The position numbers and the translations under genes were made by a program. Below are positions 2,204 through 47,576 of a DNA stretch of 64,000 nt, piece by piece. Each line of letters begins with the position of its first letter. Positions within the stretch are counted from its first letter, which is position 1. This DNA comes from Hyphomicrobiales bacterium (lineage in GTDB: Bacteria; Pseudomonadota; Alphaproteobacteria; Rhizobiales; Beijerinckiaceae). The stretch is from positions 1 through 64,000 of the forward strand of contig JAIXSM010000005.1 in NCBI GenBank assembly GCA_027484655.1, in the 5' to 3' direction. The notes beneath the pieces are model-generated. The model saw only the letters and a list, made by a program, of their open reading frames with translations, did not search any database and had not been told where the DNA came from.

Positions 2204-3310
2204 ATGAACAGGTTCAGCGGCTGGCTCATGGCTGGCGCTCTCGTGCTGCTGGCGCTTTTCGTCGCCGAGCCGTACGTGGCGCGTCTCATGTACAGCGCCA
2301 CGGAGCCGCGCGCGGTGACCCCATCTGGGGGTTTGGCGCAGGGCGAGCAGCACACCATCGAGCTGTTCCGGCGCGCGTCGCCTTCCGTCGTGCATGTGTT
2401 CGCCGAGCCGCGCGGATCGCGCCTGCGCGAGCGTTTCAGCAGCCGCGAGAGCGAGGATGACCAGCGCCAGAGCGGCACGGGCCTTGTGTGGGATCAGGCG
2501 GGCCACATCGTCACCAACAACCACGTTGTGTCGGGCGCCGCGTCCTATCGTGTGCGCCTCGCCAACGGCGAGAACGTGCCGGCGACGCTCGTAGGCCGCG
2601 CCGAGGCGTACGATCTCGCGGTCCTGCGGCTGGGCCGCGTGTCGTCGCCCCCGCCGCCGCTGGCGCTGGGCACGTCCGCCGACTTGCAGGTGGGGCAGGC
2701 GGTGTACGCCATCGGCAACCCGTTCGGGCTCGACCAGACGCTCACAACCGGCATCATCAGCGCGCTGAGGCGGCGCGTGCCCACCGATGACGGTGGCGAA
2801 CTGTCCGACGTGATCCAGACGGACGCGGCGATCAATCCCGGCAATTCTGGCGGGCCACTGCTGGATTCGACAGGCCGGCTGATCGGCGTCAACACCGCGA
2901 TCTATTCGCCCAGCGGCGCGTCGGTGGGCATCGGCTTCGCAATACCGGTCGATGTGGTGAACCGTGTCGCGCCGCAGCTCATCAGGCAGGGGTCTGTTCC
3001 AACGCCCGGGATCGGCGTTCTTGTCGGCCACGAGGGCATGACCGCGCAGCTGGGCGTGGACGGGCTCATCATCATGCGGACCGTCGAGGGCTCACCTGCG
3101 GAGCGCGCCGGCCTGCGGGGGCTCGATCCGCGCACGGGAATGCTGGGCGACGTCATCGTCTCCGCCAACGGCAAGCCGGTGCGCAGGCTCGGCGATCTGG
3201 CGTCTGTGCTCCGCGAGATCGGGGTGGGAAAAACCGTGCGTCTGGGCGTGAGCCGCGGCGGTCGCGTGCTTCAGATGGATGTGGAGATCACCGACATCCG
3301 CGAGCGTTGA
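2204..3310 (+). CDS. HtrA/DegS-like trypsin-fold serine protease with PDZ domain
   Basis: Probable membrane-anchored periplasmic quality-control protease. A hydrophobic N-terminal segment (GWLMAGALVLLALFV) follows the start, with no obvious signal-peptidase site, so a DegS-like anchor is likely. The catalytic triad is visible: His in TNNHVV, Asp in AYDLAVLRL and Ser in NPGNSGGPLL. A single C-terminal PDZ domain begins around PTPGIGVLVG. The ORF track uses a TTG at 2198. I prefer the ATG at 2204, which sits 8 nt after GGAGA. At 368 aa it is the length of a one-PDZ HtrA. It ends just before a terminator shared with the convergent cold-shock gene. Confidence 0.9.
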   Translation: MNRFSGWLMAGALVLLALFVAEPYVARLMYSATEPRAVTPSGGLAQGEQHTIELFRRASPSVVHVFAEPRGSRLRERFSSRESEDDQRQSGTGLVWDQAGHIVTNNHVVSGAASYRVRLANGENVPATLVGRAEAYDLAVLRLGRVSSPPPPLALGTSADLQVGQAVYAIGNPFGLDQTLTTGIISALRRRVPTDDGGELSDVIQTDAAINPGNSGGPLLDSTGRLIGVNTAIYSPSGASVGIGFAIPVDVVNRVAPQLIRQGSVPTPGIGVLVGHEGMTAQLGVDGLIIMRTVEGSPAERAGLRGLDPRTGMLGDVIVSANGKPVRRLGDLASVLREIGVGKTVRLGVSRGGRVLQMDVEITDIRER

Positions 3311-43067: not shown

Positions 43068-43097
43068 GAAATTAGGCTGTTTTTCCGATTTAGGGAA

Positions 43098-43168
43098 ATA
43101 GTCCTTGACACCGTCGCGCTGCCGGGGTAGAAGAAGCGCATGCTCCACAAGTGTGCGGGGTGCGGGGG
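43098..43168 (+). repeat. 71-bp direct repeat with promoter, copy 1
   Basis: Identical to 44246-44316 except at three positions. Contains TTGACA (43105-43110), a 17-bp spacer and TAGAAG (43128-43133). It is followed about 250 bp later by the zinc-ribbon gene. No tRNA, rRNA or ORF is recognisable between them. Confidence 0.9.
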
Positions 43169-43383
43169 GCGTATTTACCTTCGGCTCCGCTTGAGTTAGA
43201 TACTACGCAATCCGTGGTGCGGGAGGCGTGCCGTTGGCTGCGAGATCCGATTCTGTCTGCCGCTTCAGCTGCGAACGCGGCTTTTAATCTTTCCAATGGT
43301 GAACTCCGCCATCGGCAGGTCGGGATTTTGGCCAGCGAAATTGCCTCTGCGTGTCGTTCTCCTTGGCGCGAGTGAGGGAATAC

Positions 43384-43686
43384 ATGGCCGATAGCCTAGA
43401 CCCAGGGCCACACCGAGGTCTGACCGAAAATCAGAAGAAGCGCATTCAACAGTGGAGCAGAGAGAAGACCTCTCAGGGTTTCACCTGCTCAGTCTGCGGT
43501 GATAGAAACTGGCAATTATTGCCGGAAATGCTCGCGCCTCCAGCTTTTCACGGCAATACTCTAGTTCTTGGCGGATCCAGCTATCCCCACTTTGCGCTCC
43601 TTTGCACAAATTGCGGCAACACTCTTTTGTTTAACGCAGTAGCGACCGGCGTTCTTGACCCTCCTACGGAGGGCGGTAATGGCTGA
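43384..43686 (+). CDS. Small zinc-ribbon protein
   Basis: A 100-aa protein whose first helix (TENQKKRIQQWSREKT) precedes a four-Cys zinc site, FTCSVCGDRNWQLLP and FALLCTNCGNTLLFNAVATGV. I have seen this layout (CxxCG..W then CxxCG...FFNA) in small bacterial and prophage proteins, but no function comes with it. Start ATG 43384 follows GAGGGA. The stop overlaps the next gene by 8 nt. Codon use is visibly less GC-rich than the flanking core genes, which suggests transfer. Confidence 0.75.
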   Translation: MADSLDPGPHRGLTENQKKRIQQWSREKTSQGFTCSVCGDRNWQLLPEMLAPPAFHGNTLVLGGSSYPHFALLCTNCGNTLLFNAVATGVLDPPTEGGNG

Positions 43687-44089
43687 ACTGAACTTCGATG
43701 CGCCGACTATCGCATTATCACTCCCGACACAGATTGAAATGCATATGATTCAGAACTGGGAGCTGACGACCCTGAAGGAGGGCGGCAAGGATCGGTCCTT
43801 CGAGATAGCCTTGGCAACGGGCGGCGCTGCTGCCGGTTTCTTCCAAAACGCCTTGAGCGTCGCGAGGTCCGTTTATAGCAAAGAGATGGTTGCAATGTCT
43901 GATCTTCTCCTAGCCACTGTGTTTGTAGTGTTCGTTACGTGTTCGGTGGTCCTTCTTCTGAAATCCCGGGGGCTGAGTTCAAAGATTGATGAAATTGTTG
44001 AGGAAATCAAAGCTCGCCCAATCCAAAAGGGCAGTTCGCAAAAGGCAAAACTTGGCTCTTCTGAAACCTCTCCAATCGGCGTCCCTTGA
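43679..44089 (+). CDS. Membrane protein coupled to the zinc-ribbon gene
   Basis: A 136-aa protein with a polar N-terminus (NFDAPTIALSLPTQIEMHM), a weakly hydrophobic Gly/Ala stretch (IALATGGAAAGFFQNAL) and a strong membrane helix (LLLATVFVVFVTCSVVLLL). A charged C-terminal tail (SKIDEIVEEIKARP) follows. ATG 43679 lies inside the end of the zinc-ribbon gene, so both are made together. A two-component envelope or sensing unit is possible. I recognise no family. Confidence 0.7.
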   Translation: MAELNFDAPTIALSLPTQIEMHMIQNWELTTLKEGGKDRSFEIALATGGAAAGFFQNALSVARSVYSKEMVAMSDLLLATVFVVFVTCSVVLLLKSRGLSSKIDEIVEEIKARPIQKGSSQKAKLGSSETSPIGVP

Positions 44090-44245
44090 TTTTCATCTCG
44101 CGAGCTTCCGCCTCTGTTTGCCGTGACCGCAGAAACCGGCGAGAGGCGCGGTGATTTTACAGCCATGTCTTGCTAAATCGATTGCGCATCGTGCATTAGG
44201 CATATTTAGCTAACTACATTTTTGGCAACCGGTAGTATCAGGAAT

Positions 44246-44316
44246 ATAGTCCTTGACACCGTCGCGCTGCCGGGGTAGAAGAAGCGCATCCTCCACAAGT
44301 GTGCGGGGGACGGGGG
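44246..44316 (+). repeat. 71-bp direct repeat with promoter, copy 2
   Basis: Second copy of 43098-43168, three mismatches, same TTGACA-N17-TAGAAG (44253-44281). It precedes the GNAT-like gene by about 305 bp, again with no recognisable RNA gene between. Confidence 0.9.
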
Positions 44317-44585: not shown

Positions 44586-45152
44586 GTGATTCAGTCGAAA
44601 CATGCCTATTATTACGGGCTCAAAACAGCGGCGAGAACCATTGTCGTTCAAGATTTTCTCAAGCGGATCAGGGCTGGCGGGACCGGCATATCTAATTGGC
44701 ATGGGATGGTGCTTGGGTCTATCGACGGGCCAGCTTTGGAACATGCAAGCCGGCATTGGCCGAAGTACTATTCGGAGCAAACACACAGCGGGTTTTCTTG
44801 CAGCTGGGAAAGTCTTCACAGGAAGTTCCTGCCAATCCCTTCGTTTTTTGATCTCGCGGTTTGGCAACGAGTGGGGCCTGAGCGCTTTTTGCAGGGGCTG
44901 GCGCTCGGCAAGCCGTCAGATGGTAAAACCCACCTGACCATCAACTGGGTGGAAAGAAGTTTCGCCCCAACCTACATGAGGGGCGGTATCCTTCTCCCGA
45001 TCTTGGCATGTGCCGAGGAATATGCGAGGCTACTCGGATGCAGACGAGTTCTTATCAAAAATCCTGTTGAACCTTCCAAGTACGCTCGGTACGGATACGA
45101 GACGTACCGGTTACGCCGTGTATCGGCTGCTTACCTGTGCAAGGAACTTTGA
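44586..45152 (+). CDS. GNAT-like acyltransferase fold protein
   Basis: A 188-aa protein. The second half has the layout of an acetyltransferase: HLTINWVERSFAPTYMRGGILLPILACAEEYARLLGCRRVLIKNPVEPSKYARYGYETYRL (beta strand, helix, beta strand and final Tyr-containing loop). The catalytic details and substrate cannot be read. GTG 44586 is the only start after an in-frame TAG. It ends 1 bp before the 86-aa gene, so the two form one operon. Base composition differs from the core genes. Low to moderate confidence on the fold. Confidence 0.55.
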   Translation: MIQSKHAYYYGLKTAARTIVVQDFLKRIRAGGTGISNWHGMVLGSIDGPALEHASRHWPKYYSEQTHSGFSCSWESLHRKFLPIPSFFDLAVWQRVGPERFLQGLALGKPSDGKTHLTINWVERSFAPTYMRGGILLPILACAEEYARLLGCRRVLIKNPVEPSKYARYGYETYRLRRVSAAYLCKEL

Positions 45153-45589: not shown

Positions 45590-46270
45590 ATGCCCATTTC
45601 CATCACAGAAGCGCGCGCGTTGTATGACGCGGGCGCGCCGGTCGCGCGCGTCGCGGATCAACTTGGCGTTAGTTTGCGGGCGTTCCGCGATCTGCGGATC
45701 GCCAATGGCTGGCCGCTGCGCGAGCCCGTCGCCAAACCGGCTCCAGTAACTGCGTCTGCGATTGCGAAACCCAGGCGCGCTGCGGGCGCAAAGACGTCCG
45801 CGAAAGGAAAGAAGTCCTCGCGTCAGGCGGGGCGCGGCTCGCGCGCCGCGGTCAAACCTCCCCCGGGGAAGCGCGCCACGGCGCGCGCGCAGCCGCCCGC
45901 TAAGTCCCCTCGGGCGCCGCGCGTCGCCAATGATGAAACCTCTCGGGACACGCGGCAGGATCCCGCGCCCGCCGGCGCGCCGGTGGATGCGCGCGCCCTG
46001 CGCCGCCAACTGGAGGGGCGCCTGCATCGTGAGATTTCAAGCGCTGGCGCAAGGCTCGCCTCCGCGTCGGACGACGCCGCCGAGCGCGCCGCGCGCACGT
46101 TGGCGAGTCTTGTGAAATCGCTCGCCGAATTACGGCGCCTTGAAACGCTCGATCCTTCAACCGCGGGCCAAACCGGAGACGCCGATGCGTGCGACGAACG
46201 CCCCCCGCGGGATCTCGACACCCTGCGCGAAGAGCTGGCGCGCGCTCTTGAGAGATTGTCGCCCGCCTGA
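45590..46270 (+). CDS. GTA g1, small terminase-like DNA-binding protein
   Basis: A 226-aa protein. The N-terminus (ITEARALYDAGAPVARVADQLGVSLRAFRDLRIANGW) is a helix-turn-helix. A Lys/Arg/Ala/Pro-rich middle and a helical C-terminus with RTLASLVKSLAELRRLETLDP follow. In RcGTA g1 is the small terminase subunit that helps package random host DNA. It precedes and overlaps the large terminase gene by 86 nt. Confidence 0.82.
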   Translation: MPISITEARALYDAGAPVARVADQLGVSLRAFRDLRIANGWPLREPVAKPAPVTASAIAKPRRAAGAKTSAKGKKSSRQAGRGSRAAVKPPPGKRATARAQPPAKSPRAPRVANDETSRDTRQDPAPAGAPVDARALRRQLEGRLHREISSAGARLASASDDAAERAARTLASLVKSLAELRRLETLDPSTAGQTGDADACDERPPRDLDTLREELARALERLSPA

Positions 46271-47576
46271 GGCGCGCGCTCTCCTGCAGGCCTTTCTCGA
46301 TGCGCTGCACCCGCGCGAACTGGAAGCGCTGCTCGCCGCCTGGCCGCTCGCCGCCCGGGCCGACCAGTGGCCGCCGAATGCGGCGCAGGGCGGCGGGCCC
46401 TGGTCGGTCTGGCTGGTGATGGGCGGACGCGGCGCCGGCAAGACACGCACCGGCGCGCAATGGGTGCGCGGGCTGGCGCTGGGCGAACCTGACTTCGCGG
46501 CGCGGCCCGTAGGCCGCATCGCCCTTGTGGGCGAGACAGCAGCCGACGTGCGCGATGTGATGATTGAAGGCGTGTCCGGCATTCTGGCGGTCCACAACAG
46601 GGCCGAGCGGCCCACGTGGGAGCCATCGCGGCGTAGGCTCGAATGGCCAAACGGCGCGATCGCGCAGGCGTTTTCGGCGGAAGATCCCGAGAGCCTGCGC
46701 GGCCCGCAATTCGAGTGCGCCTGGCTGGATGAATTCGCCAAGTGGCGCCATGCGCAGGAGACGTTCGACATGCTGCAATTCGGCTTGAGGCTGGGCGAGC
46801 GTCCGCGCCAGCTTGTCACCACCACGCCGCGCCCCACGGAGGCGCTGCGGCGCCTCATGCAAAATCCCCGCACCGCTTTGTCGCGGGCGTCAACCTACGC
46901 CAACGCGGAAAACCTCGCGCCGTCCTTCATTGAGGCGATTGTGGGCCGTTACGCCGGCACGCGCCTTGGTCGCCAAGAGCTTGAGGGCGAGGTCGTTGAG
47001 GACGCGGAAGGCGCCCTGTGGACCCGCGATCTCATCGAAGCCGCGCGCGAAGAGGCTGCGCCCGCGCTGTGCCGGGTTGTGGTGGCCGTCGATCCGCCCG
47101 CCTCGTCCTCGGGCCGGGCCGACCGCTGCGGCATCGTCGCCGCGGGGCTCGACGCGGACGGCGTGGTGCACGTGCTGGAAGATTGCTCGCTGGGCGCGGC
47201 CCGGCCCGCCAAATGGGCGCGCGCGGCCATCGCGTGCTGCCATCGCCACGAGGCCGACGGCATCGTCGCGGAGGTGAACCAGGGCGGCGACATGGTGAGC
47301 GCCGTGATCCACGAAGCTGACGCCTCAGTGCTTGTGCGGCAGGTGCGCGCCACGCGCGGCAAGTATCTGCGCGCCGCGCCCGTGGCGCAGCTCTATGAGC
47401 AGGGCAGGGTGCGCCATGCAGGCGCGTTCCCTGCGCTGGAAGACGAGATGTGCGCCTTCACCGCCGGAGGCCTCCCGGGCGGCCGCAGCCCCGACCGCCT
47501 CGACGCGCTGGTGTGGGCAGTGACCGCGCTGGCGCTCTCCTCACGCCAGGCGCAGCCGAAAGTGCGGCGGGTCTAA
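46185..47576 (+). CDS. GTA g2, large terminase
   Basis: The packaging ATPase and nuclease, 463 aa. Walker A is GGRGAGKTRTGAQW, Walker B CAWLDEFAKW and the coupling motif QLVTTTPRPT. The RNase H-like nuclease domain begins VVVAVDPPASSSGRADRCGIV, with later acidic residues EVNQGGD and DRLDALVWA. I choose ATG 46185 because GGAGACGCCG precedes it; this places the start well inside g1 and implies coupling. The track start (TTG 46140) has no ribosome site. Confidence 0.93.
   Translation: MRATNAPRGISTPCAKSWRALLRDCRPPEARALLQAFLDALHPRELEALLAAWPLAARADQWPPNAAQGGGPWSVWLVMGGRGAGKTRTGAQWVRGLALGEPDFAARPVGRIALVGETAADVRDVMIEGVSGILAVHNRAERPTWEPSRRRLEWPNGAIAQAFSAEDPESLRGPQFECAWLDEFAKWRHAQETFDMLQFGLRLGERPRQLVTTTPRPTEALRRLMQNPRTALSRASTYANAENLAPSFIEAIVGRYAGTRLGRQELEGEVVEDAEGALWTRDLIEAAREEAAPALCRVVVAVDPPASSSGRADRCGIVAAGLDADGVVHVLEDCSLGAARPAKWARAAIACCHRHEADGIVAEVNQGGDMVSAVIHEADASVLVRQVRATRGKYLRAAPVAQLYEQGRVRHAGAFPALEDEMCAFTAGGLPGGRSPDRLDALVWAVTALALSSRQAQPKVRRV

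Follow-up and report, generated by a model that had tools for sequence, protein, structure and literature searches.

The RexAB system of phage lambda, Sbash gp30/31 and RexABpp are pairs of a cytosolic and a membrane protein (PMC6426596, PMC7542560, PMC12894663). RexAB and RexABpp are located behind CI, and the RexAB-type pair is dosage-sensitive, with membrane depolarisation proposed as its action (PMC6426596, PMC12894663). The two small genes analyzed here, which we call ZnR and TM, share with RexAB of lambda and with the RexAB-type pairs (Sbash gp30/31, CarolAnn gp44/43, RexABpp) the combination of a soluble protein and a small inner-membrane protein.

Gene transfer agents (GTAs) are domesticated viruses that ship host DNA from cell to cell. 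In Caulobacter crescentus, the CARD-NLR-like defence system LypABC serves GTA release, and a defence-like system can therefore be needed for GTA lysis (PMC13236601). The ZnR-TM pair resembles LypABC as a defence-like system linked to GTA control. However, LypABC is made of unrelated proteins (peptidases, ATPase) and has its own repressor, CdxB, whereas ZnR-TM lies inside the GTA promoter region.

The locus lies in the window, by which we mean the whole stretch of 64,000 nucleotides that was analyzed. Its features follow one another in the order P1, ZnR, TM, P2, GNAT-like gene, acidic ORF, terS and terL:

43092-43168, + strand: P1, first copy of a GTA promoter-like element, a 77-nt direct repeat (TCCTTGACACCGTCGCGCTG-N6-TAGAAG)
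43384-43686, + strand: ZnR, ORF of 100 aa, four-Cys zinc ribbon (CxxC...CxxC) with an N-terminal helix
43679-44089, + strand: TM, ORF of 136 aa, probable two-helix hairpin with a charged cytoplasmic tail (from hydropathy)
44240-44316, + strand: P2, the downstream copy of the same promoter-like element, a 77-nt direct repeat
44586-45152, + strand: GNAT-like gene (by eye, no Pfam match), first gene of a second accessory module, after P2
45154-45414, + strand: acidic ORF of 86 aa, second gene of that module, immediately behind the GNAT-like gene
45590-46270, + strand: gene in the terS position (GTA small terminase), ancestrally the first to follow the promoter, 43% identical to the G006 gene
46203-47576, + strand: terL, GTA large terminase (terminase PHROGs), which opens the GTA structural cluster

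Architecture and coupling of the two genes

A preliminary description of this DNA had proposed a compact four-Cys ribbon whose gene overlaps by 8 nt that of a single-pass membrane protein, and had recognised no known family. The ribbon is well supported. In an alignment of nine homologues the four Cys, Trp43, Pro68 and a CGNT motif are all invariant. The structure model of ZnR (pLDDT 70) shows a helix and a beta ribbon, and a fold search with it gave weak matches to TFIIS/RPB9-like folds. Neither protein has a sequence match in Pfam, NCBIfam, PADLOC or PDB, in agreement with the preliminary description, and we found no published account of the pair in open-access papers.

TM is a membrane protein as proposed, but the single pass is doubtful. 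Besides a strong helix at residues 76-94 (hydropathy 2.93), the protein has a weaker hydrophobic segment at 43-61 (hydropathy 1.21), and a low-confidence model (pLDDT 57) contains two long helices (39-65 and 68-112). Because hydropathy gives two clear hydrophobic segments in most homologous partners, TM is probably a two-helix hairpin rather than a single-pass protein. Even with loose thresholds it matched none of the known small-effector 2TM families.

The two ORFs, both on the + strand, overlap by the 8 nt ATGGCTGA, and a GGAGG ribosome-binding sequence stands immediately 5' of the TM start. The same 8-nt overlap is found at six loci on unrelated carriers (the window, L002, L015, L019, L022 and L027), and the TM partners at these loci are just 8-25% identical to the TM protein of the window. 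We also assessed whether the two families co-occur, as the preliminary description had proposed. For 11 out of 12 readable ribbon loci, the next ORF after the ribbon encodes a hydrophobic helix and starts between -11 and +1 nt (the window, L002, L015, L019, L022, L024, L027, L028, L083, L084 and L087). At the twelfth locus, L017, a candidate membrane gene stands upstream of the ribbon instead. L082 was left out of this count, since its contig stops too early downstream of the ribbon. The invariant ribbon residues and the recurring overlap argue that the pairing is not due to chance. Since co-occurrence and overlap are kept despite the low identity of the TM proteins, there is strong evidence at the sequence level that ZnR-TM is a functional unit with coupled translation.

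Distribution of the ribbon and mobile carriers

The ZnR-TM family is a rare, mobile cassette. The ribbon was found in ~1% of the genomes searched, a figure that, like the other prevalence figures given here, describes samples of genomes. Own genome aside, one of 60 relatives was positive, and the same-genus genomes searched contained no second one with the ribbon. We obtained two matches (one weak) among 398 genomes of the order and five further matches (three weak) among 385 genomes of the class; in a phylum sample of 399 genomes the ribbon occurred in the own genome only. The viral contigs scanned contained seven carriers, and the named phage genomes were not matched by any ribbon query. Further scans using the ribbons of P0003, L084 and L082 gave no new loci, and the matches L018, L020, L021 and L090 were set aside as weak or unrelated. 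Because the family is so rare and patchy, a housekeeping zinc ribbon, an identity that the preliminary description had considered, can be ruled out.

Nearly all identifiable carriers outside the window are mobile. For instance, at L002 and L015 the pair sits inside an IS1595-type element, facing a transposase that carries the domains PF12760 and PF12762, as in IS1595-family transposons with passengers. Terminal inverted repeats surround the pair (L002 138-1883; L015 7916-9691), and exact 8-bp target duplications, GCCTTGAA and GCCGTTCT, flank the two elements (both by eye). In E. coli and Salmonella, the pair is the sole evident cargo of 2.7-kb mobilizable plasmids and its ribbons form a separate branch; 14 of 5426 E. 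coli genomes carry it, on plasmids only. One plasmid copy of the pair is at NZ_CP011435.1 825-1498. In three temperate phages (L022, L084 and L087) the pair is directly behind (3' of) a CI-type S24 repressor, which is the position of rexAB. At L028 it is flanked by a holin-like and an Rz1-like ORF, at L019 it stands amid tail genes, and the L082 ribbon is in the late region of a prophage (all by eye). At L027 the pair is at a prophage edge, next to host ligD. A few hundred bases past the L027 pair, positions 2301-3188 encode a protein that appears nucleotide-binding or TIR-like by eye (phrog_3634) and is possibly another defence gene.

The preliminary description had likened the pair to small defence systems that join a cytosolic sensor to a membrane effector, and had proposed a test for enrichment near defence or mobile genes. 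The co-occurrence, the mostly mobile carriers and the three CI-adjacent sites fit this picture. However, the defence-protein models of PADLOC-DB gave no convincing match for the pair, and no classical defence island surrounds it.

Comparison with RexAB-type pairs

In several phages, though not in the window, ZnR-TM is found like RexAB directly behind a CI-type repressor. The two systems differ in both partners. On the soluble side, ZnR-TM has a zinc ribbon of 100 aa instead of a DUF4747/RexA-type protein, and no ribbon homologue matched RexA (DUF4747-like) in Pfam, NCBIfam or PDB sequences. The membrane partners all have one or two hydrophobic segments, compared to four helices in RexB, and none has a Pfam match. 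The carriers also differ, as those of ZnR-TM include IS1595 elements, plasmids and a GTA cluster. Given the lack of a RexA-type sequence and the smaller number of helices, we rejected the assignment of ZnR-TM to RexAB itself.

GTA promoter context in the window

In the window, the pair is found in a GTA promoter context and not in a defence locus; it follows the GTA promoter element P1, with no CI repressor in front. P1 and P2, which are 94% identical, bracket the pair as a direct repeat, and P1 is upstream of it on the same strand, as for an accessory of the GTA regulon. Downstream, the GTA structural cluster runs from terL through to the window end, and terL has orthologues in 28 of 36 relatives.

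We searched for the element elsewhere using P1 as the blastn query. It is also present in same-genus genomes, where it is upstream of the GTA terminase genes, and the own genome contains no strong copy besides P1 and P2. The core TCCTTGACAnCG..CGCTG..TAGG is at the expected place in 16 out of 20 GTA upstream regions of relatives, usually 560-1040 nt before terL with just terS between, and the TTGAC, CGCT and TAG blocks are invariant in the alignment. For instance, G006 has a single promoter, and its terS-position gene, the one 43% identical to that of the window, starts ~120 nt behind it. This position upstream of terS/terL and the invariant blocks identify P1 and P2 as copies of the lineage's GTA promoter element, whose promoter activity we infer. 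The pair may also have a promoter of its own within the 215-nt leader between P1 and ZnR. The leader contains a 74-aa ORF (43151-43375) that matched nothing.

In G010, a related species (L070, reversed strand, 3046 and 3331), the element occurs as two tandem copies at a spacing of 285 nt and without any cargo, so promoter duplication occurs on its own.

The copy in the window is not a current IS1595 element. In contrast to L002 and L015, the window has no IS1595 ends, terminal repeat or transposase, and no IS1595 transposase was found in the own genome.

A second accessory module behind P2

The GNAT-like gene and the acidic ORF, which make up a second mobile module, have relatives in just three viral contigs (L110, L111 and L112), and the module was found in no other of 288 genomes of the class. 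In L110 (5001-5805), the GNAT-like relative is 70% identical and adjoins a phage CI-type S24 repressor, and orf79, behind it, is 34-41% identical to the acidic ORF. In L111 (4360-5185) and L112 (407-1286), the GNAT-like relative is 55% identical and, together with its small acidic ORF, stands between portal and capsid genes. As terL of L111 and the portal and capsid proteins of both contigs are 52-53% identical to those of the GTA in the window, L111 and L112 are probably GTA clusters binned as viral. Thus, two phage-style accessory modules entered the GTA locus of the window, and the GNAT-like module also entered other GTA-type clusters, at a different site.

Possible roles of the pair

The explanation that we favor, with a probability of roughly 45%, is that ZnR-TM acts as an exclusion pair of the RexAB-like kind and that its capture placed it under GTA control. 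This explanation rests on position and architecture: the ribbon with a hairpin, the fixed ratio, the mobile carriers and the sites behind CI make a RexAB-like way of working the most plausible. The cytosolic ZnR would recognise a nucleic acid or protein produced by an infecting or activated other phage-like element. It would then open or assemble the TM membrane hairpin, and this putative pore formation would depolarise the cell and abort the intruder. The fixed 8-nt overlap would couple translation and hold the ZnR:TM ratio. As the cassette stands between two GTA promoter copies, we would expect its co-transcription with the GTA operon, which would make it a moron-like GTA accessory, and GTA promoter control would restrict the pair to GTA-producing cells. 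There it could shield producers from phages, or aid release as LypABC does (PMC13236601). Against the RexAB-like reading, there is no sequence or fold link to RexA or RexB, some sites (L028, L019 and L027) are outside immunity regions, and both structure models are weak (pLDDT 70 for ZnR and 57 for TM).

If this reading is true, an unnamed two-gene family joins the RexAB-like exclusion pairs and moves on transposons, plasmids and phages. A GTA, usually viewed as a locked-in domesticated phage, would have acquired phage-style cargo under a duplicate of the promoter that it uses itself. Alongside LypABC, this case would make repeated recruitment of defence-like modules by GTAs testable, and the 2.7-kb E. 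coli plasmids are a ready source of the pair for tests. A wider version, in which GTA clusters gather moron-like exclusion or cell-death modules under their own promoter copies, and the pair is made only in producers and excludes phages or aids cell death and particle release, seems to us rather unlikely.

A toxin-antitoxin or addiction system is an unlikely alternative. The ribbon, encoded first, would be the antitoxin or regulator, TM would be a depolarising toxin, the overlap would balance the two, and the cassette would persist by addiction on IS elements, plasmids, phages and the GTA. Two small overlapping genes, sporadic on mobile carriers that include a tiny plasmid, are consistent with this idea, as is a weak similarity of the L017 ribbon to YgiT-type fingers, although at E 0.03 it is below the cut-off. 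On the other hand, we found no toxin-antitoxin family match above the cut-off, the ribbon has no DNA-binding HTH, and a location behind CI is more familiar from exclusion genes.

Alternatively, an exclusion-type membrane pair may have been co-opted as a release or lysis module that kills or permeabilises the GTA producer, in parallel to LypABC in Caulobacter, where a defence-like system is required for GTA lysis (PMC13236601). The pair is on the coding strand between two GTA promoter copies, and the own genome lacks the GH108 endolysin that G006 and G002 carry on the GTA contig, ~16-18 kb downstream of terL. However, the GTA cluster retains holin-like and Rz/Rz1-like ORFs at its end (L106 1494-2351), and five genomes with terL but no GH108 (G003, G009, G016, G020 and G022) also lack the pair. 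With the holin-like and spanin-like ORFs intact and such relatives present, a release role is quite improbable. The cluster's own holin-like and spanin-like ORFs also weaken the more specific idea that the pair replaces the GTA holin.

Finally, the pair may be passive passenger DNA stranded by the GTA promoter through recombination, with no selected role here; its relatives that are IS1595 passengers, the absence of the ribbon from the other same-genus genomes searched and the cargo-free duplication in G010 agree with this, but we consider it very doubtful, given that both ORFs are intact with the overlap and ribosome-binding site retained, no IS ends or transposase remain, and a second intact accessory module that recurs in other GTA-type clusters stands behind P2.

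The promoter-like element in other GTA clusters

The -35/-10 reported for PgtaT of C. crescentus differs from the TCCTTGACAnCG element (PMC11150451). In several families of the order, the GTA terminase genes are preceded by the conserved sequence TCCTTGACAnCG..CGCTG..TAGGTTT (L059-L077).
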